NCBI GenBank assembly: GCA_949295645.1
Contig: CASFLY010000014.1
Span: 1 to 48,993, forward strand
Direction: 5' to 3'
DNA from: an uncultured Bacteroidales bacterium
GTDB taxonomy: Bacteria > Bacteroidota > Bacteroidia > Bacteroidales > UBA932
Length of the DNA stretch: 48,993 nt
The translations under genes were made by a program, and so were the position numbers. The notes under the pieces were generated by a model. It was not told where the DNA came from. It worked only from the letters and a program-made list of their open reading frames with translations, and made no database searches. This document shows, piece by piece, positions 2,265-23,502 of this stretch (its first letter is position 1; every line of letters begins with the position of its first letter).

Positions 2265-3608
2265 TTATATCTTAGGCTCCCAGCCTTTTTCGTATTTCCG
2301 GCTCCAGAGTCTGTCAGTTTCTGTATCCGAATTTTTGATTTTCCCTGTCAACGGGTCAATTTCAAGCGAATGCCCCACACGCTGTGCGATGTTTCCGTAC
2401 TGCACAAGCTGGGTGGATATGCAGGCGTCTTCAAGCCCGGAATTCAGTTTCGCATTCTTGCGAATGGCATCGAACCAGTTCCTGAAGTGGAAAAGATCAA
2501 GGGCTTCCGAAGGATTCAGCAGGTTGCCGGTTTCGAATTTCAATTCGCTTTTGACATCCTTGATGACACCTCCTTTGAAGTCCAGGATCGTGTACTCGTT
2601 TCCACCGGTCAGCCGTAAGTTGGCATTCTCGCCGTAAAACATCACTCCGAGAGGAAGTCCGTCCACACCGGCAGGATTGCAGCTTCTGCCTTCCCATGAA
2701 CCGGATGCCACGTCTCCGAACTGATAGGTTATAAGTTGTGTGTCAGGCGTCTGCCAGTCATCTTGATAACGATAGCGTCCGCCGATAGACCCTACCGTCG
2801 TAGGATAATCAACTCCGAGGCCCCAACGCATCATATCCACGAAATGGGTACCGTTGTTCAGAGCCTCTCCGGTTCCCCAGTTCCAGAACCAATGCCAGTT
2901 GTAGTGCACGATGTTGTCACGGAACTCCTGTCTTGGTGCCGGGCCCTGCCAGAGATCCCAGTCAAGCCACTCTGGAACGGGGACAGACTTTCCGACGCCA
3001 ATGGACGGACGGTTGTTCACATACCATGCTTTGGCATATCTGACCTTGCCGATATTGCCGGCCTTGATTTCGTCTATACCGGCCTTGACATTCGGCCAGG
3101 AACGTCTCTGATTCCCGACCTGTACGACTGATCCGTATTTCAGGGCGGCGCGGACAAGCATCCCGTTCTCCGCCGGATTGTGGCTCGTCGGCTTCTCCAG
3201 ATAGACATGCTTTCCCGCACGCATTGCCATAATGGCAGCCGGGGCGTGCCAGTGGTCCGGAGTGGCAATGACTACCGCATCAATATCCGGAGCTTCGAGC
3301 AGCTTCCGGATGTCCCGCTCCGCCTTCGGGGTTTTCCCCGTAATCTTTTTGACTGTGTCCTGACATTTGGTTATGGCCCTGCTGTCCACATCGCAGATCC
3401 AGGTTATCTCGCAGTCCTTGAGTTTGGAAAGCCCGGACGCAAGACCGAGACCGCGGGAATTCACCCCTATCATACCAAGACGTATCCGGTCATTCGCCCC
3501 CATTATCGTACCCTTGGGGTCGAATGCCATGGATTTGAACATGTTGCCGAGCAGCAATGTCGCGGCTCCGGCTCCTGCCTCTTTTATAAAGTTCCTTCTC
3601 GAAACCAT
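2265..3608 (-). CDS. Gfo/Idh/MocA oxidoreductase with Tat signal (PUL copy D)
   Basis: A 447-residue NAD(P)-dependent oxidoreductase of the Gfo/Idh/MocA family. A twin-arginine signal is visible at the N-terminus (SRRNFIK, residues 3-9, then a hydrophobic stretch), so it probably folds with its cofactor in the cytoplasm and is exported to the periplasm. The Rossmann region lies at about 42-60 (MIGVNSRG) and the catalytic EKP motif at 138-140. Family members oxidise or reduce hydroxyls of sugars and cyclitols; some act as glycosidases through a transient keto sugar, but I see no feature proving that here. It lies between the alpha/beta hydrolase and GH32-like genes. Exact substrate unknown. 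Confidence 0.9.
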   Translation of the reverse strand: MVSRRNFIKEAGAGAATLLLGNMFKSMAFDPKGTIMGANDRIRLGMIGVNSRGLGLASGLSKLKDCEITWICDVDSRAITKCQDTVKKITGKTPKAERDIRKLLEAPDIDAVVIATPDHWHAPAAIMAMRAGKHVYLEKPTSHNPAENGMLVRAALKYGSVVQVGNQRRSWPNVKAGIDEIKAGNIGKVRYAKAWYVNNRPSIGVGKSVPVPEWLDWDLWQGPAPRQEFRDNIVHYNWHWFWNWGTGEALNNGTHFVDMMRWGLGVDYPTTVGSIGGRYRYQDDWQTPDTQLITYQFGDVASGSWEGRSCNPAGVDGLPLGVMFYGENANLRLTGGNEYTILDFKGGVIKDVKSELKFETGNLLNPSEALDLFHFRNWFDAIRKNAKLNSGLEDACISTQLVQYGNIAQRVGHSLEIDPLTGKIKNSDTETDRLWSRKYEKGWEPKI

Positions 3609-3697: not shown

Positions 3698-4609
3698 TCA
3701 TTTCAAATACTTTTCGAGAAAGTCGTAGCCTTTCTCGAGGGCATATCCCGGAGGCCTGTGTCCCGTGGCATGGTTCAGGAAAAACAGGGTCTTGCAGTCC
3801 CGGGGCATCGCTGCGGACAACGCCTTGCGGCTGTCATCATTGTCAGCCTCGCCGGCTATCAGGAAAAACGGCTTGAATCCCGAATACTCCCACAGATCGG
3901 TATTGCATGCCCCGGCGGCCTTCAGTTCTTCCAGCCTGTCGCCCCAATACCATGGTTTTTCCCAGTTCGTCTGCTCCCAAAGCAGCCCGAAATCGCTTGC
4001 CAGTATCGCCTTTATACGAGGATCCACACACCCGGTATAAAATGCCATCTTGCCTCCTAAAGAATGACCGGCTATGCCTATCCTGTCGTTGTCCACCCTC
4101 GGGTCTGACTCCAGTATGTCGATCAGCAGCCTCGTATCTGCTACCAGTTTGCCGATCCCGCACCATTGGGGCCAATCGGTCAGAAGGGCATCGGCTGCAT
4201 CCTGCCACCGGGAAAAGTCATCCCTCGGCTTTCCGGAGTCCGGACAATAAGTCAGATGATAGGATTCGGCACTGATACAGATGAAGCCGCGCTTTGCCAG
4301 ATGGGCCATCATCTCTATCCCGGCATAGCGCGGCAGAGCCTCGCCTGTGAGAATATCGAAGCCCAGCATGGCATCAGGGAAATAGAATGGGACTACAACT
4401 GCGGGACACGGGCCGTCAGCTGCATCCCGGGGAATCACCATTACCACTCTCTGCCATGTGTCAGGTCCGTTCCGTTGAAGCATGACTTCCGCATCGAAAT
4501 CCTCATAGCTATGCCGCTCCACAAACTTCACCTCGTGAGGAAAGACATACTCCTGCGGTACGGAAAGATACTGGAAAATCAGAGATATTATCAGAATCAG
4601 TTCAGTCAT
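3698..4609 (-). CDS. Alpha/beta hydrolase, dienelactone-hydrolase/acetyl-esterase-like
   Basis: A 303-residue alpha/beta hydrolase. The nucleophile elbow GHSLGG places the catalytic Ser at about 183; an Asp in the AGEADND segment and a His in HATGHRPP near the C-terminus would complete the triad. The N-terminus is hydrophobic (residues 1-16), consistent with export, though the signal is weak. The family includes carbohydrate esterases that remove acetyl or other acyl groups from glycans, which fits a PUL setting, but the substrate is not determined. Its start overlaps the GH20 stop by four bases (ATGA), indicating translational coupling. Confidence 0.8.
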   Translation of the reverse strand: MTELILIISLIFQYLSVPQEYVFPHEVKFVERHSYEDFDAEVMLQRNGPDTWQRVVMVIPRDAADGPCPAVVVPFYFPDAMLGFDILTGEALPRYAGIEMMAHLAKRGFICISAESYHLTYCPDSGKPRDDFSRWQDAADALLTDWPQWCGIGKLVADTRLLIDILESDPRVDNDRIGIAGHSLGGKMAFYTGCVDPRIKAILASDFGLLWEQTNWEKPWYWGDRLEELKAAGACNTDLWEYSGFKPFFLIAGEADNDDSRKALSAAMPRDCKTLFFLNHATGHRPPGYALEKGYDFLEKYLK

Positions 4610-6300
4610 TCCATTTCCTGTTTGAATTTCTCCGGAATCCCGTATTCACCGAAAACTGCCCGACTATAAGGATAGTCCATAATATCATAGGCCTGCATCT
4701 GATGCACCAGTGCTTTCTTGAAACGTTCAAAGTCACGTTTCCCCTTTTCGCACCACTGGATTTCACTCAAGGCATCCATCCTCGGCAGAAGGTTGTAATA
4801 CATGTTCACCCTGTCTGAAATGAATTCGGTCCAGAGATTTGCCTGCACTCCGAGTATCTTGTCCAAATGTTCCGGATCCACTTCCTCTTCAGGCTCGTAA
4901 GAATATGTTTTCTCAATCGGTATAAAGCCCCCGATGCTCAGAGGTTCAAGATCCAGATGTTCGGACTGGTAATAGTCGAAATAGAAATACGGGGCAGGAA
5001 CCATTACCGTTCGGAATCCATCATTTGCCGGCATCCGGCTTCTGCCCGGACGCCAATACATGACTACCGCGTCCTTGGATATGTCCCCTTCGATGATTTC
5101 GTCCCAACCCATGAGAGTCCGTCCATGTTCAGCCAGGAATTTCTGAACTCTGTCTGTCACGTAGCACTGAAGATACTGTTCTTTGGTGAAACGCGAATCG
5201 GAACGCAGGCCCAGCTTCCTGATAAGGCGCTGGCAGTCAGGACAATTCTCCCAGAACTGCTTGCGGCATTCGTCTCCTCCGATATGGATGATTTCCGACG
5301 GGAAAAGTTCCATGATTTCGGTCAGGACATCTTCGATGAATGTAAATGTCGCCTCTTTTCCCGGGCAAAGGGCTTCGTCGGCGATGGCCCAGGTACATCT
5401 CACCTCGTACGGGCCTCCGGTACATCCCATTTCCGGATATGCTGCAAGAGCCGCCACCATGTGTCCAGGCATGTCGATTTCCGGGATGACGGTGATTCCC
5501 AGGCTGTCGGCGTATGCGACGACATCGCGGATTTCATCCTGGGTGTAATACCCGCCGTAAGGAGTATTGTCGTAGATGTTTCCGTTGACCTTGTGCATCG
5601 GGTCATTGTGGTGCCCGACTATGGTCTGCTTCCTGATGCTTCCATATTCAGTGAGTCTCGGGTACTTACGGATTTCGACCCTCCAGCCCTGGTCATCCGT
5701 AAGATGCCAGTGGAAAGTGTTCATCTTGTGCATGGCCATCAGGTCAAGGTAGCGCTTCACTTCATCCGCGCTGAAAAAATGCCGGGCGACATCGAGGTGC
5801 ATGCCACGGTAGTGGTATCTGGGGGCATCCTCGATGGTAAGGCATGGCAGTTTCCACAAGGCGTCACGGACGGTAGTATCTCCATAATATTCCACAGGGA
5901 GCATCTGCCCTATGGTCTGTATTGCATAAAGCACTCCGTGGAAGTCAGCTGCCGTGATTCTGGCAGAACGGGCGGAGATGTCTATCCTGTAGGATTCTCT
6001 GCCCATAGTCGAGTCTGTGCAAAACGAAATGCCGTGTTCCTTAAGTCCGGTGCAGACACGGCTTTTCCTGCCGGTGACCTTTCCGAGCCTTCCGGCGAAT
6101 TTCTCTATGGCAGCCACAGACATGGCATCCATATCTTCGGAAACAGAAATGCCTGCACCGGCTACTTTGAATGTACCATCACCTGCAACAATACTTTGGG
6201 GAGCAGGGATAATATTGTCCGTAACAAAGTTTATATTGTCCTGCGGACCGCAGGACAATATAAACATACCTGAGAGGGCTATGGCCGCTATGTGTTTCAT
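4606..6300 (-). CDS. GH20 beta-N-acetylhexosaminidase, lipoprotein
   Basis: A 564-residue exo-beta-N-acetylhexosaminidase that would release terminal GlcNAc or GalNAc by substrate-assisted catalysis. The start at 6300 (MKHIAA) gives a clean lipoprotein signal with lipobox LSC (Cys about 17); an upstream in-frame ATG at 6324 would overlap the preceding gene. A GH20b-type N-terminal domain (about 30-150) precedes the TIM barrel, and the catalytic Asp-Glu pair lies in HIGGDE (about 343-344). The family suits a PUL that also carries nagA and a nagB-like gene. The lipobox codons form a perfect 37-nt palindrome (6229-6265). The stop overlaps the next gene's start by ATGA. Confidence 0.95.
   Translation of the reverse strand: MKHIAAIALSGMFILSCGPQDNINFVTDNIIPAPQSIVAGDGTFKVAGAGISVSEDMDAMSVAAIEKFAGRLGKVTGRKSRVCTGLKEHGISFCTDSTMGRESYRIDISARSARITAADFHGVLYAIQTIGQMLPVEYYGDTTVRDALWKLPCLTIEDAPRYHYRGMHLDVARHFFSADEVKRYLDLMAMHKMNTFHWHLTDDQGWRVEIRKYPRLTEYGSIRKQTIVGHHNDPMHKVNGNIYDNTPYGGYYTQDEIRDVVAYADSLGITVIPEIDMPGHMVAALAAYPEMGCTGGPYEVRCTWAIADEALCPGKEATFTFIEDVLTEIMELFPSEIIHIGGDECRKQFWENCPDCQRLIRKLGLRSDSRFTKEQYLQCYVTDRVQKFLAEHGRTLMGWDEIIEGDISKDAVVMYWRPGRSRMPANDGFRTVMVPAPYFYFDYYQSEHLDLEPLSIGGFIPIEKTYSYEPEEEVDPEHLDKILGVQANLWTEFISDRVNMYYNLLPRMDALSEIQWCEKGKRDFERFKKALVHQMQAYDIMDYPYSRAVFGEYGIPEKFKQEME
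6229..6265. repeat. Perfect 37-nt palindrome over the GH20 lipobox codons
   Basis: GTTTATATTGTCCTGCGG (6229-6246), one central base, and its exact reverse complement (6248-6265). It covers codons for about residues 12-24 of the GH20 lipoprotein, so both strands can encode the same peptide FILSCGPQDNIN. The transcript could fold into a stem of about 17 bp roughly 35-70 nt after the start codon. Confidence 0.95.
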
Positions 6301-6313
6301 GGCAGGCAACATT

Positions 6314-8857
6314 TTATTCCACAACAGTAAGTGAGACGTCGTCGATGTTCACGAGACATTTCACTGTCTGACCGCTTTCATTCAGGACCGGAACCGGATT
6401 GAAATGTATCGCGCACTTCCCGAAGCTGATACCAGGATTCTCGCTGATGATTTTCGGGAGATCGAAAGTGACCGAGCACTCCACCCAGTTTCCGCTCTTG
6501 TCCAGAGTTATGGTCTCCTCGTATGTAGTATCGGTAGTATTTGTCGCTCCGGTAGAAGACACGATACCGACTCTCATTTCCTCGATATTGTTCAGGTTCG
6601 CCGCAACATTACTTGTACCCCAGACAAGAGCAGGTCTGTTGTACCAGAACGTCAGCTTGTATGTCTTGGTATCATCCAGAGAGAGTGTCTGTGCCAGGGA
6701 GAACAGGTGCTCCATATTATCCTTATGGTCTGCATATTGGGATGTAGCACCGAATGCCGTATATACCACTGCCGATTTGGTACCCGTATGGGCTATCGGG
6801 GTGCCGCCTCCGGTATATTGCAATTCCGTGTCATCAATATACGTGAACCAAAACCACGAATTGTTGCTGCATCTGTGGAACCAGGTCCCGTCAGGAACTG
6901 TAGTACCGGCGGTTGCATCCGGGAAAGTACTCATGGATGTAGTATTGAAGAAACCGGCAAGACGCAAAGGCCGTACAAGCGCATTGGTATGGACTACAGG
7001 AGATACCGAATGCGGGGTAATCTCCTCCTCGAAACCGCCGTTCAGGATTTCTTCCCTGAGTTCTACAGGCGGAAGATCCTCATCGGAAAATTCAGGAATC
7101 TCCGTCCCGATGATCGGCTCGTCAGGGAGGGTCTTGTCTATGACGGCCTTGTGGTTCTCATAGAATGTCTTGGCCGCCTTCATCACGCTGATGTTCTCGC
7201 TGTAGGTCACAGGATCGGAATCCTGGCAGTTGCCGATGAGCACGATACCGTCACACCTCAGATACAGGAACTCCATAGCTTCAAGCAAGATTTCCTCATC
7301 GACAGGCTGATAGGCTTTTGGAAAATCGGCTTTTCTGTGGTTGTACACGGCACCGATGCAGGCATATATCTTCTTCCCGGCAGGAAGTCCGTTGCGGGCC
7401 TCCTCCAGGACTGTCCTGGTGTCGGATTTCCAAAGTTCTATATCATCGTTGACCATCACCACATCAAGGTAGAGAATATCGGCATATTGTCTGAGCACCC
7501 TTGTCGGTTCTACGGCATAGCGCAGCCAGCTGTCCATCCTTGCAAACTCGGTTTCATAACTACCAAGCAGAAGGGCCGTAAGAGCTGTAGGGCCTACTCC
7601 CTTATAGCCGATGGTGGTCACATCGTTCGCCGCGTGGAAGGTTTCGTAAACGCTTTTGAAACGCTCTACCATGGCGGCATTGTTACTACTGCGATCCCCT
7701 ATCCATGTGCTCTGGTTGATGAGAACCGGACGTGTCACACTCTCCCCGACCTTGGTGATACGGCTCAGAACCGGAGGGTTAGGCTCCCCAGGGGCCAGGA
7801 CATCCGGATCCTTCTCTGAAAGATCGGCTTCCTTTACATAGTTTATCGGCTGGAGACCGAATTTCAGAAGGTCATCAGGTGTATTCGTAAAGTTAAGGCA
7901 CTCATAGACATAGAATTCGGAAGGCTCACGGGTGATGTCTCCTGACTGCTCAGAGGTGTCGAGCTTGATATTGGCAGCATGGTTAGAGATGAACTGTTTG
8001 GTAGTGTTGTATATATCCTGCACCCTGCCGTCTGTCCAGGCTACGTCCTCACCGTTTTCGCCTTTGCCATGAGACCAGATCACCACTCCGTCGAGTCGCT
8101 CGTAGCAGGCTTCGAGCATTTTCATCCACACGTCAGTCGTCATGAACTGCTGGTAGTACTCATTGCTCTCGAGGTTGTAGTACTGAGGCCAGAGATATCC
8201 TACGATCTTCTTGTCCGGAAAATTCTCCCTGATATAGTTTACCGTCACGTCCAGATCGGATATGTATTGGTCTATGTCCGGATTCATGGCATAGAGCGAA
8301 GGATACAGCACGTCCGAAACTTCCGCCGCTCCCATGCGTTTCTGGCTGTCGGATTTCCAGCGGGCTATAAGTTCCTCTTCGGTCTTTCCGACCATATTCG
8401 GGTTGTGACGGAGAATGTTCAGATCCGACACAGGAAGTCCGTAATTGCCGACATTACATCCCGGGATAGCCTCCTTGAATCTGTCGAACAGTGTAGTAAA
8501 TCCTGCCTTCATCTCCGCGCCGGACTTGCTCGAATACCAGGCTTCAATGTCTGTACTGATGGTATTGACTCCCGTGGCCTTGGCAAGGTCAATCTGTGTC
8601 TGGATCTTCTCGTCATCCAGTTCACCGTCATCCCCCAATAAGAAAGCCTCGTATATTAATGTAACTGGCGATATCATGTCAGCTTTCAGATCAGGCTTGC
8701 CATCGTACGACATGGCGTCATAGACATAAAACTCTTTCGTTGCACCGGGAGTTTCATCTTCCTCTTCGAGGTATGCTGGCGGTTCGGGTTTTGAACAGGC
8801 CATAGCCGAAACCAACAGGGCCGCCATTAAAATGAATATATTGCTATGATGTCTCAT
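6314..8857 (-). CDS. Hyaluronidase-like lipoprotein with duplicated barrel domain and CBM-like tail
   Basis: An 847-residue lipoprotein (lipobox SAMAC, Cys 21). Residues about 42-292 resemble the GH56 hyaluronidase barrel: an acidic DxE motif after a beta strand (STDIEAWY, Asp103/Glu105), a YPSLY segment like the YPSIY of hyaluronidases, and a late DGVVIW strand. Residues about 314-570 look like a second, degenerate copy (FYVYE for FYVYD, DILYL for DVLYP, CDGIVLIG for LDGVVIWS) in which the DxE is lost. Residues about 604-847 begin LNGGFEE and look like a jelly-roll carbohydrate-binding module. A role as a surface endo-N-acetylhexosaminidase is inferred from motifs and from GH20/nagA neighbours; no family can be assigned firmly. 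A single-domain paralogue lies next to it. Confidence 0.75.
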   Translation of the reverse strand: MRHHSNIFILMAALLVSAMACSKPEPPAYLEEEDETPGATKEFYVYDAMSYDGKPDLKADMISPVTLIYEAFLLGDDGELDDEKIQTQIDLAKATGVNTISTDIEAWYSSKSGAEMKAGFTTLFDRFKEAIPGCNVGNYGLPVSDLNILRHNPNMVGKTEEELIARWKSDSQKRMGAAEVSDVLYPSLYAMNPDIDQYISDLDVTVNYIRENFPDKKIVGYLWPQYYNLESNEYYQQFMTTDVWMKMLEACYERLDGVVIWSHGKGENGEDVAWTDGRVQDIYNTTKQFISNHAANIKLDTSEQSGDITREPSEFYVYECLNFTNTPDDLLKFGLQPINYVKEADLSEKDPDVLAPGEPNPPVLSRITKVGESVTRPVLINQSTWIGDRSSNNAAMVERFKSVYETFHAANDVTTIGYKGVGPTALTALLLGSYETEFARMDSWLRYAVEPTRVLRQYADILYLDVVMVNDDIELWKSDTRTVLEEARNGLPAGKKIYACIGAVYNHRKADFPKAYQPVDEEILLEAMEFLYLRCDGIVLIGNCQDSDPVTYSENISVMKAAKTFYENHKAVIDKTLPDEPIIGTEIPEFSDEDLPPVELREEILNGGFEEEITPHSVSPVVHTNALVRPLRLAGFFNTTSMSTFPDATAGTTVPDGTWFHRCSNNSWFWFTYIDDTELQYTGGGTPIAHTGTKSAVVYTAFGATSQYADHKDNMEHLFSLAQTLSLDDTKTYKLTFWYNRPALVWGTSNVAANLNNIEEMRVGIVSSTGATNTTDTTYEETITLDKSGNWVECSVTFDLPKIISENPGISFGKCAIHFNPVPVLNESGQTVKCLVNIDDVSLTVVE

Positions 8858-8894
8858 AATTGTATTGATTGTTAAAATTCAGTGTCGTCTGTCA

Positions 8895-9761
8895 TTATTC
8901 GCCGGCAATATCGGTCACTATGTTGTCCGAATGCTCGGAAATGAATTCCTTGGTCACTTCATACATGGCCTGCACCCTGCTGTCAGACCATTGCACATAA
9001 GTCTTGTTGTCCTCGTCACGGCCGTGAGCCCATATGACCACTCCGTCCAGATACTTGTAGCAGGCTTCCAGGACGGCCCTCCAGTCTTCCGGACTGATGA
9101 ACTTCTGGTAGTACGGATTGTATTTGAGGTTGTAGTACTGTGGCCAGATGTAACCGATGACCTTCTTCCCAGGAAAATTCTTGCGGATAAACTGTGCAGT
9201 GGTCTTTACGTCTTTGGCAAACTGCTTCATGTCCGGATTCATGGCATAGAGCGAAGGATAGAGCACATCGCTGACTTCCGCTACCGGGAAACGGTTCTTG
9301 CTGTCGGATTTCCAACGGGCGATGATTTCCTTTTCCGGTTTTCCTTTCATGGAGGTCGTGTAGCGTAGAACGTTCAGGTCTGATACCGGGACACCGTAGT
9401 TGCCTACATTACATCCCGGGATGGCTTCCTTGAACCTGTCGAAAAGTTCCGTAAAGCCGGCTTTCATCTCCTCTCCTGTCCGGCTCTCATACCACTCCTC
9501 TATATCCGTGCTGATAGTATTTATACCGGAAGCCTGTATGTCCTTAATACGGGCATCTACCTTGGCCATGTCCAGCTGAGTGTCCTCTCCTATCAGGAAA
9601 GCCTCGTAAATCAGCGTGACAGGAGACAGTTTGTCTTCAAGCAGGGAGGCAGGCTTGCCCTGATAGTGCATAGCATCGTAAATGCAGAACGTCTTCTGCG
9701 CAAAAGAAGGGAAAGTCATTGAGAGCAGCGCAATAGCCGCAATTATTATCCGTTTTCTCAT
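8895..9761 (-). CDS. Hyaluronidase-like secreted protein, single domain
   Basis: A 288-residue paralogue of the first domain of the adjacent lipoprotein, with long identical stretches such as FDRFKEAIPGCNVGNYG. It has a standard signal peptide ending SFAQ at about 22 and no lipobox, so it is probably periplasmic or released. The putative catalytic DxE is kept (TDIEEWY, Asp86/Glu88), as are the LYPSLYAMNPD, GYIWPQYYN and DGVVIWAHG segments. The spacing and motifs recall GH56 hyaluronidases and, more loosely, GH18-type barrels with a substrate-assisted mechanism. It sits between susD and the longer lipoprotein, a usual place for PUL glycanases. Function is inferred. Confidence 0.75.
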   Translation of the reverse strand: MRKRIIIAAIALLSMTFPSFAQKTFCIYDAMHYQGKPASLLEDKLSPVTLIYEAFLIGEDTQLDMAKVDARIKDIQASGINTISTDIEEWYESRTGEEMKAGFTELFDRFKEAIPGCNVGNYGVPVSDLNVLRYTTSMKGKPEKEIIARWKSDSKNRFPVAEVSDVLYPSLYAMNPDMKQFAKDVKTTAQFIRKNFPGKKVIGYIWPQYYNLKYNPYYQKFISPEDWRAVLEACYKYLDGVVIWAHGRDEDNKTYVQWSDSRVQAMYEVTKEFISEHSDNIVTDIAGE

Positions 9762-9816
9762 AAAATACCACTGTCAATGTATTGTCAATCAAATATCTGT
9801 ATTACGGGCAGCCGCA

Positions 9817-9835
9817 CCGGGGATTAATACCCCGG
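9817..9835 (-). other. Hairpin over the susD stop codon
   Basis: CCGGGG (9817-9822) and CCCCGG (9830-9835) are 6-bp inverted repeats around a 7-nt loop that contains the TAA stop of the susD gene. No U-run follows, so it is not a standard terminator. It could protect or process the transcript after susCD. Confidence 0.4.
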
Positions 9836-11317
9836 ATTGTTCTGCCATTTTCTCAGTTCCACCTGTCTTACCGGCAGAGGGAAGAGATAGTTCTGCCTGC
9901 CGGCATTCACCCTTGCACCGATGTCCGGATTCTTGGAAACCATCTCGTCCACCCTGTCGGTGCGAACCAGCTGGAACCATCTTTTGAATTCGAACACGTT
10001 CTCCCAGCCGAACTCGTCGAAGACCGCGTCCTCGAATTCGTCGGCAGACATCTGCGGCAAGACATAGTCGGGATCGCCCATAGCCCTTGCCCTAACTTTC
10101 CTGAGGCATTCACGGGCCAGGTCGTCAGGATTGCCCGTAGCCTTGGTGACGGCTTCGGCGTAGAAAAGAAGGGCATCGGCATAACGGTATATCGGCGTCA
10201 GACCTTCGGACAACTGTCCTGCAGCAGCCGTATTGCCCTCTATCCCATACTGTCCGCATCCACCGAAACCCCGGTATTTTCTGATATAAGGTGCGCCGGC
10301 ATCAAAATCTTCCCACTGAACTATCTCACCGGTTGTCTTGTCTTCCGTGGATGTCACGAAACAGAATTCCTTTCTCGTATCGTCCGGGAAACTTTCGAAG
10401 AACACCGGATCGGCCGCATAATCGCTCCATCCGCCTTCTTCATAACCGAGATATGATATACCGTACTGGCTCGGCAGATAAGTGAGAGAGTGATGCAGGG
10501 CAAAAATATGTTCAGTAGTGTTATTCACGTTTCCGATCTGCCAGAGCTGGCGGTATTCAGGCATGAGTGAGTGCGGTGAATTTTCCACTACGTCCTTTGC
10601 CACGGCAGCAGCCTCGGCGTAGTACCCTGTCTCGTTCATCGGCCAGCCTGCCATATTCAGGTAGACATCTGCAAGAAGTGTCTTTGCCGCCCAACTTGTA
10701 GGGGCCTGCACGGTTCTGCCCGTACCCTCAAGAAGTTCAGATGCAGCAATGGCGTCCGGAACGATGATCCTTTCGTAGATATCCTTCACGCTTTTTCTCG
10801 GGATGGACTCGTCACCGTCTATGTCGGCTGTGGACTGAGGGTCTGTGATGGCCGGAGCGTCTCCCCACAGGCGGACTACGTAGAAATACATCAGCGCCCT
10901 GATGAAACGCGCCTCACCGAGATACTTGTCTGTCACAGTGTGATCCAGTTTGTCATTGGCCTCTATCAGGGCAATGATATTGTTCGCGGAAAAGATAGCC
11001 TTGTAGAACCACTTCCACAACGTGCTGACGTCCGGACTGTCGATGGCGGCACTCATCTGGTCGTTCAACAAGACCCTGGTCTTGGTAATGTCTCCCACTA
11101 TCATATCGTCACCGGCCACGGCCAAAGAGGCAAGCCGGCAATTATAGCCGAAATTTTCTCCCCACCAGTCCTTGTACATACCGTTGCACATGCTCCCAAG
11201 GATGTCTTCATTCAGTTCGATGGTTTCCTGGAAAATCTGGCTCTGCGGTTTCTGCAGGAGATCGACGCACCCGGAAAGCAACAGGGCCGCGAATGCAAAA
11301 CAGATTATCTTTTTCAT
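9824..11317 (-). CDS. SusD/RagB-family glycan-binding lipoprotein
   Basis: A protein of about 497 residues, starting at MKKIIC (an upstream ATG lies at 11329), with a lipobox (LLLSGC) close to the N-terminus. SusD-like proteins sit on the outer surface over the SusC barrel and deliver oligosaccharides to it. The sequence has the TPR-rich SusD pattern: a DLLQKPQSQ start, a helical region with YFYVVRLWGDAP, the late YADALLFYAEA segment, and a C-terminus with NPGY. It follows susC by 13 bp, the usual paired order. Specificity cannot be read from sequence; the neighbouring enzymes suggest an N-acetylhexosamine-containing glycan. Confidence 0.96.
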   Translation of the reverse strand: MKKIICFAFAALLLSGCVDLLQKPQSQIFQETIELNEDILGSMCNGMYKDWWGENFGYNCRLASLAVAGDDMIVGDITKTRVLLNDQMSAAIDSPDVSTLWKWFYKAIFSANNIIALIEANDKLDHTVTDKYLGEARFIRALMYFYVVRLWGDAPAITDPQSTADIDGDESIPRKSVKDIYERIIVPDAIAASELLEGTGRTVQAPTSWAAKTLLADVYLNMAGWPMNETGYYAEAAAVAKDVVENSPHSLMPEYRQLWQIGNVNNTTEHIFALHHSLTYLPSQYGISYLGYEEGGWSDYAADPVFFESFPDDTRKEFCFVTSTEDKTTGEIVQWEDFDAGAPYIRKYRGFGGCGQYGIEGNTAAAGQLSEGLTPIYRYADALLFYAEAVTKATGNPDDLARECLRKVRARAMGDPDYVLPQMSADEFEDAVFDEFGWENVFEFKRWFQLVRTDRVDEMVSKNPDIGARVNAGRQNYLFPLPVRQVELRKWQNNPGY

Positions 11318-11330
11318 GATTCTTGTCAAT

Positions 11331-14300
11331 TTACAATGTCAGGTTAATGCCGAAAATGAATTCCCTTTTGCTCGGATATGTGCCGGTATCAAGACCCGGA
11401 CGCAGAGGATTGCTGACTGCCAGTTCAGGATCATTTCCGGAATAGGAGGTGATGGTGAAGACATTCTTCGCGGAAACATAGAGTCTGAGATTGACTTTCT
11501 TGAACGTGTAGCCCAATGTCACATTCTTGAGTTTCACGAAGCCGCCTTTTTCGACAAATGTGGAAGAAGCCACGTTGTCGTAGGAAGTGATGGCATCCCT
11601 GTCCGTGCCGAATCCGGCGATCCTGGCATCTTCGTTGACTCCGGCTATCCACCTGTCCGCTAAAGCAGGAGTAGGTGCGAGCTGGGAAGTCAGTCTGGCC
11701 TCAGGATAGTTGTAGATGTCGAAACCGTGATAGCCTATGAAGAAGACTGACAGGTCGAAATTCTTCCAGTTCAAGGTGTTGTTGAAGCCCCAGTTGAACT
11801 TCGGTTGCCCGTTGCCTATGACCTGATAGTCATCGGCATTGATAAGTCCGTCGGCCTCGACTTCTTCATACCTGTACGAACCCGGCCTTACCTTTGGACT
11901 GGTAGGTTTCGCCACAGAAGGGTCGTTGTATGCCTCCGTAGACCATACGCCGAGGGATTTCAAGCCGTATATGGTACCGATAGGCTGGCCCTCGTAGAAT
12001 CTGAAAAACGCATTTCCCCAGCCTGTACCGAGTTCCATGTAGTCGGACTCTATGTCACCGAGTTCGGTGATCACTGCGTTGTTGTGGGCCAGGGTGAGGT
12101 CGGCTTTCCAGTAGAAATTCTGGGTGTTGACCGGAATGGCTCCGACGGTGATTTCCACGCCCTTGTTCCGGATGGCGGCAGCGTTGCGAAGACCGGAGGA
12201 CATTCCCATGTCATCAGGAAGGATAACCTCGTTGATGGCATTCCGTGTATTCTTTATATAGTAGTCCGCACTTATGGTCAGACGATCATTCCAGAAAGAG
12301 GCGTCGAGACCTATATTGTGCTGGGCAGTCTTTTCCCACCTGAGGCTTGAGTTGCCAGGGTTAAGAGTATAGGCAGTGGAGTTGTCGGATCCTATCACGG
12401 CAGAATAAGTGCTGAATGCGGAATATGCTGCCACCGCCTGGTTTCCTGAAATACCATATCCATACCTCAGTTTGAGCTGCTTGATGAAGTCTGCATCCCT
12501 GAGGAAAGACTCCTTTTTGATGTCCCATGCCACACTGGCGGCAGGGAAAGTGTCCCATCTGTTTTCATAAGCGAGAAGAGAGGAACCGTCCCGCCTGAGA
12601 GTAGCGGTGACCATATACCTGTCCATCAGCACATAATTCACCCTGGCGAAATATGACATGGCTGTCGTAGTGGTCGCAGACTGGGACGTGATCCTGCTTT
12701 CGCGTGAAAGCATCAAGTTTTTCCAACCGATCTCGGTCGAGGTGAGGCCGTCCGCTTGCAAGGCAAGTGCGTAGTTATTGGAAATGCTTGATTCAAAACC
12801 TATGGTGGCGTTGATACGATGGTTACGGTTGAACTCCCTGGTATAGTTCAAAGTCGTGGTGTTCTTCCAGCCCCAGGCATTCCTGTCGTTGTAGGTAGCC
12901 GTGGACTCGCCTCTGAGCTTTCCGCTGTAGCTTTGGTCACTGCTGGTCGTTCCATAGTAGCGGTTCGAGAAGGTAATCTGCTCGTCATGCCTGAGAGTAA
13001 GTCCCGGAATCGGCTCGTAGGACAAATACGCCTGAAGGTAATTTCTGAAATTCATGTCCAGGTTGTTGTTCCTTTTCTGTTCGTCTATGAAGCCTACCGG
13101 ATTATAGACACTCGCATTGGAAATTGTCCCCTGGGTCAGGTTTCCGTCCTCGTCATACGGCAGGACAGTCTGGGGGAATTCTCTCGCCAGGGTAAGGATG
13201 CTGGTAGAACCGGAAAAACCGTTCGTGGTCGCATCTATGATACTGCCGTAAAAGTTCACCCCTGCCTTCAGATTCCGAAGGATATCGGCATCCACTTTCA
13301 GTCTGTAGTTCCAGGCATTGTTCTGCGAGATTCCCACTACACCTTCATTGTGTGCATACTGTGCCGAAAACAGGAACTTTACCTTCTTGCTTCCTCCTCT
13401 GAGGCTGATATCGTGTACATGACTGATTGCCACATCCTTGAAAATGGCATCCATGTAGTCGAAAGTATCGTAGCCGTTCTTGAAATTGGTGATCTGACGT
13501 TCGGTGTACATGTCTCCGTTCTGGTACATGAGCTGGTTCCACTCATTCGCCATTCTCGCGAACTCGTCTACCGGCATGATTTCCGGCATGTCGGCAGGAG
13601 TTCCAAAATCCACATAGCCGTTGTAGGAGAAATATACTTTCTCGTTTGAAGTGCTTTTCGTAGTAATCAGGATGACACCGTTTGCTCCACGGGATCCGTA
13701 AATGGCCGTGGAAGAGGCATCCTTCAGGATTTCGATTGACTGGATATCCGCAGGATTCACTGCATCCAGACTACCGCCTGCAAAACCGTCAATGACGATA
13801 AGCGGTCCCCCGTCAGCCTTGATGGAGTTGACACCTCTGACACGCATGGTCGGACTGGCACCGGCTGCTCCGGATGAAGAAACCACACTCAGTCCTGCCA
13901 CCCTGCCCTGAAGCAGGTCAGAAACCTGTGACACCGGCATCTTTTTCATAGTTTCTTCGGCATTCAATGATGATACTGCACCTGTCAGGTCGGATTTGCG
14001 CTGGACACCGTATCCTACCACAACGATTTCATCAAGATAATTGATATCCGTCTCAAGGACGACATCCACTACTGCCCGGCCGGAAACATTGACCGTCAGA
14101 TCCTTGTATCCCATACCGGAAAAAGTCAGTCCGCCCTCGGACGAAGCCAGTTCTATTCTGTAGGTTCCGTCTGCTGACGTTATCGTACCGTTGGGCCCGT
14201 CTGTTTCCATGACTCCGGCCCCGATGACCGGCTCACCGTTCTCGTCCGTCACCTTTCCTGTGACGGTGAAAGGTTCCTGAGCCAGGGCATTCATCCCTAT

Positions 14301-14348
14301 CGAAAGGAAGACGAATAAAGAAACGAATAGTTTACCTTTGAGCTCCAT
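11331..14348 (-). CDS. SusC/RagA-family TonB-dependent outer-membrane transporter
   Basis: A 1005-residue outer-membrane transporter that imports oligosaccharides using energy from TonB. In order: signal peptide (about 1-24, ending ALAQ), a carboxypeptidase-regulatory-like domain (about 27-105), the conserved DEIVVVGYG segment (about 106-115), plug domain with the IEILKDASSTAIYGSRGANGV signature region, and a 22-strand barrel to the C-terminal NLTL. Its start overlaps the end of the beta-helix frame upstream by 17 bases. The pairing with SusD is standard for glycan import. Confidence 0.97.
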   Translation of the reverse strand: MELKGKLFVSLFVFLSIGMNALAQEPFTVTGKVTDENGEPVIGAGVMETDGPNGTITSADGTYRIELASSEGGLTFSGMGYKDLTVNVSGRAVVDVVLETDINYLDEIVVVGYGVQRKSDLTGAVSSLNAEETMKKMPVSQVSDLLQGRVAGLSVVSSSGAAGASPTMRVRGVNSIKADGGPLIVIDGFAGGSLDAVNPADIQSIEILKDASSTAIYGSRGANGVILITTKSTSNEKVYFSYNGYVDFGTPADMPEIMPVDEFARMANEWNQLMYQNGDMYTERQITNFKNGYDTFDYMDAIFKDVAISHVHDISLRGGSKKVKFLFSAQYAHNEGVVGISQNNAWNYRLKVDADILRNLKAGVNFYGSIIDATTNGFSGSTSILTLAREFPQTVLPYDEDGNLTQGTISNASVYNPVGFIDEQKRNNNLDMNFRNYLQAYLSYEPIPGLTLRHDEQITFSNRYYGTTSSDQSYSGKLRGESTATYNDRNAWGWKNTTTLNYTREFNRNHRINATIGFESSISNNYALALQADGLTSTEIGWKNLMLSRESRITSQSATTTTAMSYFARVNYVLMDRYMVTATLRRDGSSLLAYENRWDTFPAASVAWDIKKESFLRDADFIKQLKLRYGYGISGNQAVAAYSAFSTYSAVIGSDNSTAYTLNPGNSSLRWEKTAQHNIGLDASFWNDRLTISADYYIKNTRNAINEVILPDDMGMSSGLRNAAAIRNKGVEITVGAIPVNTQNFYWKADLTLAHNNAVITELGDIESDYMELGTGWGNAFFRFYEGQPIGTIYGLKSLGVWSTEAYNDPSVAKPTSPKVRPGSYRYEEVEADGLINADDYQVIGNGQPKFNWGFNNTLNWKNFDLSVFFIGYHGFDIYNYPEARLTSQLAPTPALADRWIAGVNEDARIAGFGTDRDAITSYDNVASSTFVEKGGFVKLKNVTLGYTFKKVNLRLYVSAKNVFTITSYSGNDPELAVSNPLRPGLDTGTYPSKREFIFGINLTL

Positions 14349-15561
14349 AATCGCTATAATTATTTACAGGTGAAAAAACTACATTGTCCGGATCAGCCGT
14401 CGAGAAGATTTCCGACGCTACAGGTACGGTGCCTGCTACCGGGCAATAACCGTTGGGATTGAACCAGTTCATCGCAAGTCCGGATGAAGCGATATTGTCT
14501 TCGATCACAGGAGAGAATGAGCTGTTTTTGTCGGTGATGTACGCAAAACGCCTGGCCCCCGCCGCAGGATTGGTGTTGTAGAAGATGTTTTTCCTGATGG
14601 TGAGCCCGCCGAGAGAATAAGCGTACAGACCGGCGAAATTGTTGTTGTGCGGCATCATGTTGTAGAAAGTGTTGTTTTCTACTTTGATGACTGTCCCTTG
14701 GAATCCGCTGTCCGGAGCATTTTGCTCGTTGCTGTACAGCAAAGAAAAGCCCTGCGTGTATGTATTGCTGCAGAAGATATTGTTGCTTATCGTAATGTTT
14801 TCCCATGAATCGAGGTGATTTGGGGCGTACAGGAATTCGATAAGCCTTGTAAGGCCGGTAGTGGCAGCGGTGGTGATGTCCGAATCCACAAGCCTGAAAT
14901 CCTTCGGGCCGAGCAGTTGTCTATTGTTTATTATGACGAAATACTTTGTGGCATCCGGGATGAATATTTCGCAGTTGTCGATGTGGACACAGTTCATCTG
15001 GGTGGTGAACGGGCGGATGGCGCTGCTGTTTGTCAGATCAAACCGGACGCCTTTTATGAGAAGATTTTCGTCTGCGTCTCCGGTAAGATACAAGGCGTAT
15101 GGAGGCGTAATTGTCGAACTCGGTGTGAAAGTCACTTTCCGCGCGTCATAACGGCTCACGAGGATGAGATTCCCGACATTGACCTCTTTGCTGTTCACGA
15201 ATCCGTAGTCCCCCGCGGATTCGAGGAAGAAGACGCCGGACTTTTTGTTGCATTCGGCGTAAAGGTCTATGTCTCCGGATACGGCAGAGAGGAGTTTCGC
15301 TGTCAGGCCGGTGGATTCCTTGCTGTATTCAAGGCCGGCTATTTCGATGGATTTGCCTGCTTCCCAGAGTTTCCAGTTGTCGATGCGGCCGTCGAGAGGG
15401 CCGAGGTCTGTGATTTTGTTCCGTCCCGCAGGCAGGGCATTGGGCGCATTGACTTCGCCCAGATAGTCGGTGCATTCGTCATCACCGTAGAATGTGACGG
15501 TAAAACCGTCTTCGAAGCGGATGTCGGGGGCTATGGCGATGCAGTTGTCCTCACCGGGCAC
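14332..15561 (-). pseudogene. C-terminal part of frameshifted fimbrillin/beta-helix surface protein
   Basis: This reading frame encodes the end of the fimbrillin-like domain (APDIRFEDGFTVTFYGDD) and then a parallel beta-helix of the kind found in surface glycan-binding proteins of PULs (repeated strands such as LLIKGVRFDL, CVHIDNCEIFI, ITISNNIFCS, VIKVENNTFYN). The only start here is an internal GTG at 15561. The frame actually continues upstream to the G9 tract (15588-15596), across which it would join the N-terminal part if the tract held 7 or 10 G's. The stop lies 17 bases inside susC, suggesting coupling. As written it is probably untranslated, unless slippage restores the frame. Confidence 0.8.
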
Positions 15562-15578
15562 TGCATCAACAGTAATCT

Positions 15579-16196
15579 TTAGGCTCTCCCCCCCCCAGAA
15601 AGGAATTCGCCTTCACCTGTAGCAGGGTCTACGGACATGACCCCGGCGAGAGACTCGTCCGCATTGCCTTTCAGGACGGCTTTCACTACACCGGCCTTGG
15701 AAATACGGAAGCGGAGGAGGTTCACGACATTGCGGAAAGTGAAGTCTTCCGTCATGCCGGCATCGATGGACGCGACTTGAACTGTCTGCCTGCCCCTCTG
15801 CTGTACGGACTTAACTGCATCGAGAGAAATCCGGCCTTCGGAAAGAGTGACCGTACCGTCTGTCACGGCATCATAAGGGCAGACCGCGATATAGTTCTCT
15901 GCAGAAGCATCGGCCTCGGCCTTGAAGACTATGCGGCTGCCGCTGATACTGAGAACTGTAGCCCTCGAGTAGGCTGTGCCGTCGTAGACGCCGATTTCAT
16001 CGGAAGAGTCCCAGGTCACGGTCCCGTCAGGGCCTGCCGAGGACTTTGTCCCAGGATAGGTTTCCATACTGCCGGAGAACAGGATTTCTCCGGGAAGAAG
16101 ATCATATTCGGGGATGCCGGCTTCCTGAGGAATTTCCGCACAGGAAACTGCCGCCAAGCCCGCCAGAAGCATCAGATTGTAAAGAATCGGTTTCAT
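15579..16196 (-). pseudogene. N-terminal part of frameshifted fimbrillin/beta-helix surface lipoprotein
   Basis: A 205-residue fragment beginning at MKPILY with a lipoprotein signal (lipobox AVSC); the TTG at 16211 is a less likely start. The sequence is fimbrillin-like: a TKSS segment, VTWDSSDEIGVYDG, then YIAVCPYDAV and LLRFRI strands. It runs into nine G's and ends two codons later (SGGGRA-stop). The downstream frame continues the same domain, so the intact product would be about 621 residues: lipid anchor, fimbrillin-like domain, beta-helix. The position directly before susC suits a surface glycan-binding protein. Either a phase-OFF state or a sequencing slip explains the break. Confidence 0.85.
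15588..15596. repeat. Homopolymer tract C9 (G9 on coding strand)
   Basis: Nine consecutive C's on the plus strand lie exactly where the fimbrillin-like frame and the beta-helix frame meet. Nine G's give an early stop; 7 or 10 would join the frames. Tracts of this length are known to change length by slipped-strand replication. Confidence 0.9.
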
Positions 16197-16207
16197 AAGC
16201 TTTGGTT

Positions 16208-16336
16208 TCAATTGTCCCAGTCGTATTGTTCAGTGTCATAAGTCTCTGCCGCCCCTCCCATGGAAGCGCAGGAGTCCGTTTCCGGACAGATTTCCAGAAT
16301 CTCTAATTCCGGAGTGGAGTAGTTTTCCTTTTTCAT
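16208..16336 (-). CDS. Small peptide, 42 residues, YSTPELEILEI type
   Basis: A short gene starting at ATG 16336 and ending at TGA 16208, in the gap between the small membrane protein (12 bp before) and the fimbrillin-like lipoprotein (11 bp after). The product begins MKKENYSTPELEILEI, continues with a CPETDSCASMGG segment and ends in an acidic tail. Short proteins with a lysine-rich start, a Y-x-x-P-E segment and a later cysteine or small-residue motif are common in Bacteroidota beside surface-protein genes; their role is not known. It has no signal peptide and no membrane segment. The tight spacing and in-frame fit between two genes support it being real. Confidence 0.7.
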   Translation of the reverse strand: MKKENYSTPELEILEICPETDSCASMGGAAETYDTEQYDWDN

Positions 16337-16611: not shown

Positions 16612-17928
16612 TCAGAATTTCATGTAAGGGATCCTGTATCTGTCCGGGAAAGCCGTCACTTCCCGTTTTTCCATAGCTTCATTCCCCAAAAGGCAAAGCA
16701 TCGTGGAACAATAGGCCTCTTCCACGAGGTTCGGGGCCTTCGCCCCAGTAATGCACGACTGGCAGAATGCCGAAAGGATTTCGAGGGATCCGTCATTTTC
16801 GACGCCCGTCATATTCTGCCCTCCGTTCACGCTCACCGGAGATTCCAGTATCGCATGCGGGACATACTCCCCTTTCACCTCCGGCCTCCAGCTCGGGCCA
16901 GCGACCGGCACGGCGGCAAAGATCCCGTCCCTGATCTGGTTCAGGAGCTGCCGCATCCCGTTGACCGTATGGTCATCTTCGAGATAATAGACACCCTTGG
17001 AAAGGTCGACTGTCCCCCTGCTGCACAATATCTGGTCTTCCATCCCGTTGAACTTGTTCGAAATCAGGGTCTGGTAGTTGATAAGCCGTCCGTCGGAGAA
17101 TCTGTAGACAAGGCTGCAGCTGTCATATACTTCCCTTCCGTCTTTCCAGTAGATGATGTCTCCGAAGCCCGACACCTCCACCGGCATCTTCCCGGTCACC
17201 AGAGTGCAGACCTCCAGCTGGTGCGATGCCAGTTCCGTCATCAGCCCGCCCGAGCTTTCACGGTACAGGCGCCAGTTTATCTGCCTTTCCAGTTCCGGAG
17301 ACGGGACGGGCCTGCGCCAGTCCGCATTCCTGAACCAGTGGCATCTCATCCCGACGACTTCGCCGAGCTCTCCTGAAGCTATCAGGCTGAAGCCTTTGAT
17401 GTACTTTTCGTCGTACATCCTCTGCATACAGTAGTACAGGGCCTTTCCCTGCCGGACGTATGCGTCGTAGACGGCCTTGCACTCGTCCATCGTAAGGGCC
17501 ATGGCCTTTTCGCAGAAGACATGCTTTCCGGCAGAAAGGCTGTCGAGAGTAATCCTGGCATGAGTGCCCAGAGGAGTGGCTATTATCACCCCGTCGATGT
17601 TTTTGTCTTCAAGCAGTTTCCGATAGTCGGCATACGGGGTCGCCCGTGGGAACATTTCCCGGGCCCTGGCCAGGTTTTCAGGATAAATGTCGCAAAGGGC
17701 CACGACTTCGGCGTGGCCGATCCCGCGGAGGTTTACCAGATGGTAGCATCCGCGCGAGCCTGTTCCGATAAGGGCCACCCGTGCCTTGCGTTCCCTCCTG
17801 ACCTCTTTCAGTTTGTCGGGAGTGCACGAATTCAGCCACGGCATAGAGGACAGTACGGCAGTCCCCGCTGCCATACAGCCCAATTCCTTTATGAATTTTC
17901 TCAGGCCGAGATCCACTTCCTTTCCCAT
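16612..17928 (-). CDS. Gfo/Idh/MocA oxidoreductase (PUL copy C)
   Basis: A 438-residue Gfo/Idh/MocA-type dehydrogenase. A weak export signal is seen: LRKFIKELG before a hydrophobic stretch to about residue 32, with only one arginine, so Tat export is doubtful. The Rossmann motif GTGSRG lies at 55-60 and the catalytic lysine in E140-K141-A142, with Ala replacing the usual Pro of EKP. The second domain holds YCMQRMYDEKY and HWFRNADWRRP segments. The substrate is unknown. It lies between the nagB-like gene (21 bp gap) and the small membrane protein (5 bp gap), so it is part of the amino-sugar section of the operon. Confidence 0.88.
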   Translation of the reverse strand: MGKEVDLGLRKFIKELGCMAAGTAVLSSMPWLNSCTPDKLKEVRRERKARVALIGTGSRGCYHLVNLRGIGHAEVVALCDIYPENLARAREMFPRATPYADYRKLLEDKNIDGVIIATPLGTHARITLDSLSAGKHVFCEKAMALTMDECKAVYDAYVRQGKALYYCMQRMYDEKYIKGFSLIASGELGEVVGMRCHWFRNADWRRPVPSPELERQINWRLYRESSGGLMTELASHQLEVCTLVTGKMPVEVSGFGDIIYWKDGREVYDSCSLVYRFSDGRLINYQTLISNKFNGMEDQILCSRGTVDLSKGVYYLEDDHTVNGMRQLLNQIRDGIFAAVPVAGPSWRPEVKGEYVPHAILESPVSVNGGQNMTGVENDGSLEILSAFCQSCITGAKAPNLVEEAYCSTMLCLLGNEAMEKREVTAFPDRYRIPYMKF

Positions 17929-17949: not shown

Positions 17950-18714
17950 TCAGACTATATATTTCCCGCTTTCCGCATCCACATACATGGTCGCTGCCGG
18001 ATGCTTTCTGAGTATGGTAGCCGGACATTTTTCCGAAACAGGTCCCTTTACCGTCTCTTCCACTGCCCTGGCCTTTTCCCCGGACGGCACCACACAGAAA
18101 ATCCTGTCTGCCGAAAACAGGGTCGGGCAGGTCAGCGTAATGGCATATTCAGGGACCTCGTCTAATGTCCGGAAACAGCCGTCATGCACCTGCTGGTTCC
18201 TGCATACATTGTCCAAGGCGACCTTCTTGATTCTTTTCGGGTCATGGAAATCCGCTTCGTGAGGGTCGTTGAACGCTATGTGGCCGTTCTCGCCGATACC
18301 CATAAACACCACGTCGATATGATGGTTCTCTATGATACGGTCATAGTTTTCCATCGCCTCCGTCTCGCTCCCGTAGCTGTTCAGGTACTCCACGGATGCA
18401 AAAGGAAGCCTGTCGAAAATCGCGCGGCGCAGGTAATTCCCGAAACCCTGGGGAGCATCGGCGGGAAGGCCGATGTATTCATCCATGTGAAGGGCGTGCA
18501 CCCTCTTCCAGTCGATGCCATCGGAAGCTGCGACCGCTGACAGGAATTCATTCTGCGACGGAGCCGCGGCAAAAACCATATAGATTTCATCTTTCGTCTG
18601 CAAAAGACTCCTCAAGTAGGCGGACGCCTCCTCGCCTGCCGCGGCCCCCATTGCCTTGCGTGTGTCATACACGTTGACTTTCAACGAGTCGACCTTAAAT
18701 GATTTCTTTAACAT
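17950..18714 (-). CDS. nagB: Glucosamine-6-phosphate deaminase-like protein
   Basis: A 254-residue cytoplasmic member of the NagB/isomerase family, expected to convert glucosamine 6-phosphate to fructose 6-phosphate and ammonia. HMDEY (Asp78) matches E. coli Asp72, and FMGIGENGHIAFNDP matches the active-site loop. The loop differs from E. coli: Asn143 stands at the position of Asp141 and Asp150 at that of Glu148, while the His is kept (His145). These changes occur in a NagB-like subgroup and leave room for another amino-sugar phosphate. The start overlaps the nagA stop by seven bases, which supports a joint role. Confidence 0.88.
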   Translation of the reverse strand: MLKKSFKVDSLKVNVYDTRKAMGAAAGEEASAYLRSLLQTKDEIYMVFAAAPSQNEFLSAVAASDGIDWKRVHALHMDEYIGLPADAPQGFGNYLRRAIFDRLPFASVEYLNSYGSETEAMENYDRIIENHHIDVVFMGIGENGHIAFNDPHEADFHDPKRIKKVALDNVCRNQQVHDGCFRTLDEVPEYAITLTCPTLFSADRIFCVVPSGEKARAVEETVKGPVSEKCPATILRKHPAATMYVDAESGKYIV

Positions 18715-23498: not shown

Positions 23499-23502
23499 GC
23501 CA

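Follow-up and report, generated by a model that had tools for sequence, protein, structure and literature searches.

The hyaluronidases of venoms and the sperm and lysosomal ones of humans belong to glycoside hydrolase family 56 (GH56), whereas the microbial counterparts treated in the accessible parts of reviews are mostly lyases of other families. Here we analyzed a 48,993-nucleotide stretch of DNA from an uncultured Bacteroidales bacterium (positions 1–48,993 of contig CASFLY010000014.1, assembly GCA_949295645.1), hereafter the window, in which two adjacent minus-strand genes encode the proteins P0001 (6314–8857) and P0002 (8895–9761). An earlier, sequence-only reading had likened both proteins to GH56 hyaluronidases and described GH56 as known mainly from animals. 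The latter agrees with three papers, which give the family as animal and venom enzymes (PMC11669647, PMC12254123, PMC7793863; papers with PMC numbers are cited here and below for the portions of their text that were accessible). In that portion of the 2024 review, none of the microbial hyaluronan-degrading enzymes was placed in GH56 (PMC11669647).

Bee hyaluronidase is a distorted (beta/alpha)7 barrel in which Asp111, Glu113, Tyr184, Tyr227 and Trp301 are conserved and important for catalysis, and the animal GH56 catalytic domain carries two disulfides (PMC13080975). GH56 has been grouped with GH18, GH20 and GH84 under an oxazoline/oxazolinium-type mechanism (PMC4263850). In the open-access literature searched, so far as its text was available, we found no description of a bacterial GH56 enzyme, and to that extent the proposal of an undescribed bacterial family holds. 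Three papers were set aside on their accessible text: GH56 is a strain name in PMC6985274, the one GH56 count in PMC10113389 probably stems from a GH5 entry with a superscript reference number, since GH56 does not occur in the passage concerned, and in PMC5352709 the family is mentioned solely as one of the genes that planctomycetes lack.

Homology of P0001 and P0002 to GH56

P0002 is a single-domain exported protein of 288 aa, and P0001 is a lipoprotein of 847 aa with a first GH56-like barrel in which the active-site residues are present, a degenerate second barrel and a C-terminal beta-rich domain. Read by eye, P0002 has a plain signal peptide, and in P0001 an acidic stretch comes after a lipobox at Cys21, which bears out the earlier view of two adjacent exported proteins. 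Domain 1 of P0001 (residues ~39–303; 7949–8743), predicted to be catalytic, is 62% identical to P0002 over residues 39–302 (E = 1e-120, a single pairwise BLASTP comparison). The landmarks pointed out before, STDIEAWY/STDIEEWY, YPSLY and DGVVIW, are all found in P0002 and in this domain. The DxE motif comprises Asp86 and Glu88 in P0002 (9498–9506) and, in the same alignment columns, Asp103 and Glu105 in P0001 (8543–8551).

The link to GH56 came from a profile of five relatives that contained no window-type sequence (A9). Searched against 177,635 PDB sequences, its top four matches were PH-20 (2.7e-7), bee hyaluronidase (2.3e-6), wasp hyaluronidase (7.6e-6) and Hyal-1 (1.4e-5), and the next match was at 0.35. 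The same profile matched P0002 (2.1e-26), P0001 domain 1 (2.9e-23) and P0001 domain 2 (3.4e-9), and it matched none of 1,206 control sequences (1,200 shuffled, 6 reversed) at E ≤ 10. Compared by hhalign with the profile of six window-type domains (A1), it gave 99.9%. A profile of twelve domains (A7) likewise placed the four GH56 enzymes first in PDB (1.3e-9, 1.5e-8, 5.7e-4 and 0.0038, next 0.082), and one of eleven domains (A4) retrieved bee and wasp hyaluronidase only (4.9e-6 and 7.2e-6).

Three relatives stand between the window proteins and the animal enzymes. A1 found proteins of genome G679 (locus L017; best 3.8e-30), two of which exceeded the cut-off of the Pfam GH56 family PF01630 (31.8 and 40.2 bits against 23.2). 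The third, in genome G727 (locus L033), was found by the PF01630 genome search (31.9 bits), and its phmmer search of PDB returned bee hyaluronidase as the sole match (7.9e-4). A family scan of the twelve A7 members gave PF01630 matches for three of them, the best at 6.4e-8, without naming which. At the level of profile comparison, these results show that P0002 and P0001 domain 1 share homology with GH56, via intermediate relatives.

In HMMER alignments to 1fcq_A, counted by hand, bee Tyr184, Tyr227 and Trp301 aligned with Tyr122, Tyr172 and Trp244 of P0002. Together with Glu88, these residues are invariant in all twelve A7 domains, and Asp86 and Glu88 are both kept in all six window-type domains. 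A TIM-barrel fold had been set beforehand as the test of the resemblance, and AlphaFold2 predicted a seven-stranded barrel for P0002 (pLDDT 88.8, pTM 0.86, eight-row alignment) with strands at residues 25–31, 49–52, 82–86, 118–122, 166–168, 200–205 and 240–245. The predicted fold is like the distorted (beta/alpha)7 barrel of the bee enzyme. In the model, strands 3 and 4 end in Asp86 and Tyr122, respectively, Tyr172 lies four residues past strand 5, and Trp244 is one residue before the end of strand 7. Judged only from the DSSP strand ends, Asp86 and Glu88 would lie at the C-terminal end of predicted strand 3, in agreement with the placement that had been anticipated. In the animal GH56 fold, the DxE motif is located on strand 3.

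We also looked for families of a different activity, and no confident match emerged. The Foldseek search of the P0002 model against PDB gave 236 matches at E ≤ 0.001, and the best 50 were generic barrels (GH5, GH164, GH99, class III (GH18-type) chitinase, heparanase, DHDPS and others). Neither window protein had a Pfam match to GH18, GH20, GH84, GH85 or GH123 at E ≤ 1, families whose motif arrangement differs from that of the GH56-like proteins.

Several results weigh against placing the window proteins in GH56. Neither P0001 nor P0002 matched PF01630 at E ≤ 1 in Pfam, scans of both against Pfam, NCBIfam and PHROGs gave no related family, and P0002 had no family match even at E ≤ 10. The phmmer search of PDB with P0002 returned chance matches alone (best 0.27), and the A1 profile found no GH56 enzyme in PDB at E ≤ 10, so that the link runs through intermediates. 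GH56 was absent from the best 50 of the 236 Foldseek matches, with TM below 0.5. The Asp86 column holds Asn in three of the twelve A7 domains. P0002 has three cysteines (26, 117 and 234) and P0003 has two, when a pair of disulfides would require four. Finally, the HMMER local alignments to the animal enzymes start after the DxE motif, and for this reason the equivalence of the motif rests on its pattern and its strand position. Because some of the tested features of GH56 membership were absent, we file the family as a new bacterial branch beside PF01630 and not as a member of it. The proposed resemblance itself was supported by the profile searches, the predicted barrel with DxE ending strand 3 and the conserved active-site positions.

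The degenerate barrel and the C-terminal domain of P0001

Domain 2 of P0001 (residues ~313–584; 7106–7921) is a degenerate copy without the catalytic residues. Residues 315–554 are 25% identical to P0002 (E = 5e-13, a single pairwise BLASTP comparison), and the domain-2 profile (A3) matched the A1 profile of domain 1 with 99.8% probability (hhalign, E = 9.5e-29); against PDB it gave chance matches alone (best 0.2). The second copy had been described as having matching landmarks without DxE. The absence of DxE was confirmed and the matching places are recognizable, but the landmarks themselves are altered, most of the YPSLY Tyr and DGVVIW Trp residues having been lost. In the three domain-2 copies compared (window, the uncultured Bacteroidales metagenome-assembled genome (MAG) contig L004 and the Sphingobacterium MAG L005, in this order), the residues are N/N/I at the D86 column, S/K/G at E88, K/V/V at Y122, V/T/Y at Y172 and I/L/S at W244. 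At the D86, E88, Y122 and W244 columns, D, E, Y and W are retained in each of the six domain-1-type sequences.

Between the window and L004, domain 2 has 68.8% identity (pN 0.217, pS 0.78), close to the 75.0% of domain 1 (pN 0.145) and the 70.5% of the linker and C-terminal part (pN 0.204); for most pairs, saturation of synonymous sites precluded dN/dS ratios. The pattern of substitutions indicates purifying selection on this dead barrel. In a 17-domain tree, the three domain-2 copies formed one clade (99/98), with long branches for L033, L019 and L005 domain 2. Therefore, the architecture of live barrel, dead barrel and C-terminal domain either predates the separation of these copies or was transferred whole. 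The possibility that domain 2 is decaying junk was rejected on its 68.8% identity, its low pN against saturated pS and the supported clade that includes L005.

A second set of degenerate copies occurs in an 868-aa protein of L017, which has two of them followed by a copy with NxE that is 95–96% identical to a separate single-domain gene. The starred branches of the 17-domain tree force at least two changes of the degenerate label, and a single origin of the degenerate copies was rejected on this basis. We read this as two losses of the active site, dead copies having probably arisen at least twice. Tandem dead barrels thus appear to recur and to be kept, which fits a putative binding role. The inactive second barrel put forward by the sequence-only reading is, in P0001, both real by its lost catalytic columns and maintained by its substitution pattern and clade.

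The C-terminal beta-rich domain (residues ~601–847; 6317–7057) is probably a carbohydrate-binding domain. These ~245 residues had no Pfam match above cut-off (best FNG, 0.018, 15.5 bits against 27), and the domain profile had no PDB relative at E ≤ 1. The domain is 23% identical (BLASTP, E = 8e-9) to the next listed open reading frame (ORF) after the GH56-like gene of locus L019, an ORF with a weak CBM_4_9 match of its own that stays below threshold (0.01). The Foldseek matches of the full-length P0001 model included a CBM16 module (2zew, TMt 0.55), on an alignment assumed to lie on the C-terminal part. This model is of low confidence (pLDDT 63.2, pTM 0.41) and was used for the CBM16 hint alone; its other matches included generic barrels, methionine synthase, PgaB and other unrelated folds.

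Gene neighborhoods of the window locus and its relatives

All genes of the window locus described here lie on the minus strand. P0002 and P0001 are directly downstream of a pair encoding a SusC-like TonB-dependent transporter (11331–14348; TIGR04056, 6.7e-241) and a SusD-like lipoprotein (9824–11329; PF14322, 5.6e-20). They are upstream of a GH20 beta-N-acetylhexosaminidase with a lipobox by eye (4606–6324; PF00728, 2e-111), an esterase-like alpha/beta hydrolase (3698–4609; PF01738, 2.6e-6) and a Gfo/Idh/MocA protein with a Tat signal (2265–3608). The gene order from SusC to Gfo/Idh/MocA is the same in L004, where the identities of SusC, SusD and GH20 were confirmed by Pfam. Farther upstream are genes for a NagB-like glucosamine-6-phosphate deaminase (17950–18714; 118.6 bits, below the NCBIfam cut-off of 326), the N-acetylglucosamine-6-phosphate deacetylase NagA (18708–20084; TIGR00221, 267 bits against 225.65) and a NagP-like MFS transporter (19862–21133; 315 bits, NagP cut-off 625). 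The NagA ORF is probably longer than the gene, as the TIGR00221 match begins at residue 71. The neighbors named in the earlier reading (GH20, nagA and a nagB-like gene) are therefore present, and the cluster appears to be built for the harvest of N-acetylated amino sugars.

Four Gfo/Idh/MocA-type proteins flank the locus (2265–3608, 16612–17928, 21123–22457 and 22457–23509). The one with the Tat signal resembles glycoside 3-dehydrogenases below their cut-off (158 bits against 750), a hint of a keto-sugar step or of a role like that of GH109. Elsewhere in the window, a lipoprotein-like ORF (15579–16211) and a DUF5123/beta-helix-like ORF (14332–15561), both sub-threshold in Pfam, appear to be a single gene broken by a frameshift near 15560–15580. 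L020 has a comparable gene, ending in DUF5123, ahead of its GH56-like gene.

The family was rare and scattered in the searched samples, as if moved horizontally. Whole-genome searches were confined to the phylum of the window, the sets overlap, and counts include the genome of the window, or that of the search centre, whenever a set contained it. The P0002 search was positive in 2 of 101 relatives; the A1 search in 3 of 393 genomes of the order and 2 of 395 of the phylum; the A4 search in 1 of 244 genomes of the class of G679 and 2 of 151 of the genus; and the PF01630 search in 2 of 296 genomes of the phylum and none of 14 control genomes. The A7 search found 2 of 395 genomes of the class, one by a weak match (7.6e-4). 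A pattern scan of genome contigs, which finds close relatives only, gave 12 pattern matches with 2 relatives. No relative turned up in phage or plasmid records, and none of 137 pattern matches in IMG/VR contigs was confirmed as one. The weak A7 match, over 57 profile positions, belongs to a 553-aa protein of genome G699 (locus L034, 832–2493, minus strand) that has DxE and PSxY-like landmarks by eye. It was counted in the class tally, left out of the alignments and tree, and is possibly a further branch of the family.

Homologues in polysaccharide utilization loci had been suggested as a check, and GH56-like genes were found in Sus-type loci with SusC- and SusD-like genes in L004, L005 and L020 besides the window, and in L018 near a SusD-like gene and a GH36 gene. 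The locus L019 is of glycosaminoglycan type and encodes PL8, GH16, sulfatase and Hepar_II_III proteins, all upstream of the GH56-like gene; its Hepar_II_III protein resembles HepC (211 bits, cut-off 700).

The two remaining loci are of a biosynthetic kind, and their GH56-like proteins have 19–25% identity to P0002. L017 carries three genes with five GH56-like domains (10263–15552) in a surface-polysaccharide biosynthesis cluster with a Wzz/GNVR-AAA (tyrosine-kinase) protein, a Polysacc_synt flippase, Wzy_C, glycosyltransferases, a Bac_transf sugar transferase and two Sulfotransfer_3 proteins, neither of which was named by NCBIfam. Two of the five domains are degenerate, and two others have Asn for the Asp of the motif. 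In L033, a protein with a lipobox by eye and NxE (8815–9798, minus strand) is encoded between a glycosyltransferase gene and that for WbuX, an N-acetyl sugar amidotransferase (281.6 bits against 203.2), in a surface-polysaccharide cluster that also has a Polysacc_synt flippase, glycosyltransferases and Polysacc_synt_2.

Proposed function, substrates and comparison with known systems

We assign a probability of roughly 0.7 to the reading that the two proteins are endo-beta-N-acetylhexosaminidases of a bacterial branch of the GH56 superfamily, a surface lipoprotein and a soluble partner that would use substrate-assisted catalysis and feed an amino-sugar pathway. As we infer the activity and its endo mode, P0002 and P0001 domain 1 would hydrolyze beta-N-acetylhexosaminide bonds inside a polysaccharide with retention. 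Glu88 (P0002 numbering) would be the acid/base, with the 2-acetamido oxygen of the subsite −1 sugar as nucleophile; Asp86 would orient the 2-acetamido group, and Tyr122, Tyr172 and Trp244 would line the subsite. P0001 would work on the cell surface, where its dead barrel and C-terminal domain may hold the polymer, and SusC/SusD would import the fragments. P0002 and GH20 would then shorten these, presumably in the periplasm, and the released N-acetylhexosamine would enter by the NagP-like carrier to be processed by NagA and the NagB-like protein. We favor a polymer as the substrate because P0001 has two extra putative binding domains beside SusC/D, the usual arrangement for polymers.

As to which polymer, the proposal that fares best, plausible at somewhat less than even odds, is that the polymers cut by this family are bacterial or otherwise non-animal and contain N-acetylated amino sugars (capsule, O-antigen, exopolysaccharide), and that the window locus scavenges such a polymer. 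It is suggested by the five domains in three genes of L017 and the one gene of L033 inside surface-polysaccharide biosynthesis clusters, and by amino-sugar catabolism in the window locus, where no uronate genes were seen. However, the clusters belong to relatives only 19–25% identical to P0002, whose substrate may differ. If the association with surface polysaccharides is true, the proteins would be a further family among the hydrolases that trim such polysaccharides during synthesis, and the window locus would gain an assayable function.

A true hyaluronan or chondroitin hydrolase, making the window locus one that hydrolyzes glycosaminoglycans alongside the usual lyase route, is unlikely, although the homologous animal enzymes cut both polymers (PMC7793863) and L019 has PL8, sulfatase and Hepar_II_III genes. 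The organism itself probably meets glycosaminoglycans, as PL8, sulfatase and GH88 matches occur in its genome (G000, 83.55% complete), but none is on the window contig. Both PL8 matches above cut-off are on contig C21; of three GH88 matches, the one on C21 is sub-threshold and those on C115 and C159 are above cut-off; and one of six sulfatase matches is on C21. On C21, the two PL8 matches, the sub-threshold GH88 match and the sulfatase lie at about 16.9–25.0 kb, probably a canonical chondroitin/hyaluronan locus. Because these genes are on C21 and not on the window contig, we do not commit to hyaluronan. Furthermore, none of the 17 Pfam-scanned window proteins matched a lyase or beta-glucuronidase family, the product of a hyaluronan hydrolase would require a glucuronidase, for which no genome-wide search was made, and the relatives in biosynthesis clusters (L017, L033) probably do not act on animal glycans.

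Lower still we place barrels that are exo-acting, or that act on glycoprotein N-glycans or short chito-oligosaccharides instead of a long polymer. The GH20, NagA and NagP-like neighbors would fit any source of GlcNAc, and P0002 has no extra domains, but the animal GH56 enzymes tabulated in the accessible part of PMC7793863 are endo-acting and P0001 has its two additional putative binding domains beside SusC/D. A glycosidase TIM barrel from a different lineage, or a binding protein, with no more than a resemblance to GH56 would explain the missing PF01630, A1–PDB and Foldseek matches, but is very improbable given the clean gap in the profile statistics, the chain of significant matches and the four conserved GH56 active-site positions.

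A broader evolutionary picture is conceivable, though we hold it as doubtful. GH56 would have a rare, scattered bacterial branch that ancestrally cut bacterial amino-sugar polymers, with DxE and NxE variants and at least two origins of tandem dead barrels as glycan-holding modules, and the animal hyaluronidases would be one specialized outgrowth. The naturally occurring variants, with either Asp or Asn next to the catalytic Glu or with dead barrels, bear on how the family works and on its origin.

Compared with known systems, the proposed route through an oxazoline/oxazolinium intermediate is shared with GH18, GH20, GH84, GH85 and GH123, and the variants with NxE are reminiscent of GH85 with its Asn/Glu pair. 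The bacterial hyaluronan-degrading enzymes (PL8, PL16, PL33, GH84 and others) belong to different families, with possibly the same substrate. The L017 (two) and L033 (one) proteins above the PF01630 cut-off have the same domain as the window proteins, with the same Glu, Tyr, Tyr and Trp, but differ by Asn for the DxE Asp in three of their four A7 domains and by a biosynthetic instead of a catabolic neighborhood. The window proteins resemble the animal GH56 enzymes (bee, wasp, Hyal-1 and PH-20) in homology that extends roughly from helix 3 to strand 7, a predicted seven-stranded barrel and a putatively equivalent DxE motif, and P0002 and P0001 domain 1 have equivalents of bee Tyr184, Tyr227 and Trp301. 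Unlike the animal enzymes, they are bacterial, with ~265 residues per barrel and no room for two disulfides, and this branch offers small models of the GH56 active site that lack those disulfides. They also lack an EGF-like domain, as does the bee enzyme, and differ from animal GH56 in occurring as lipoprotein and plain exported forms, with tandem active and inactive barrels, in a Sus-type locus.

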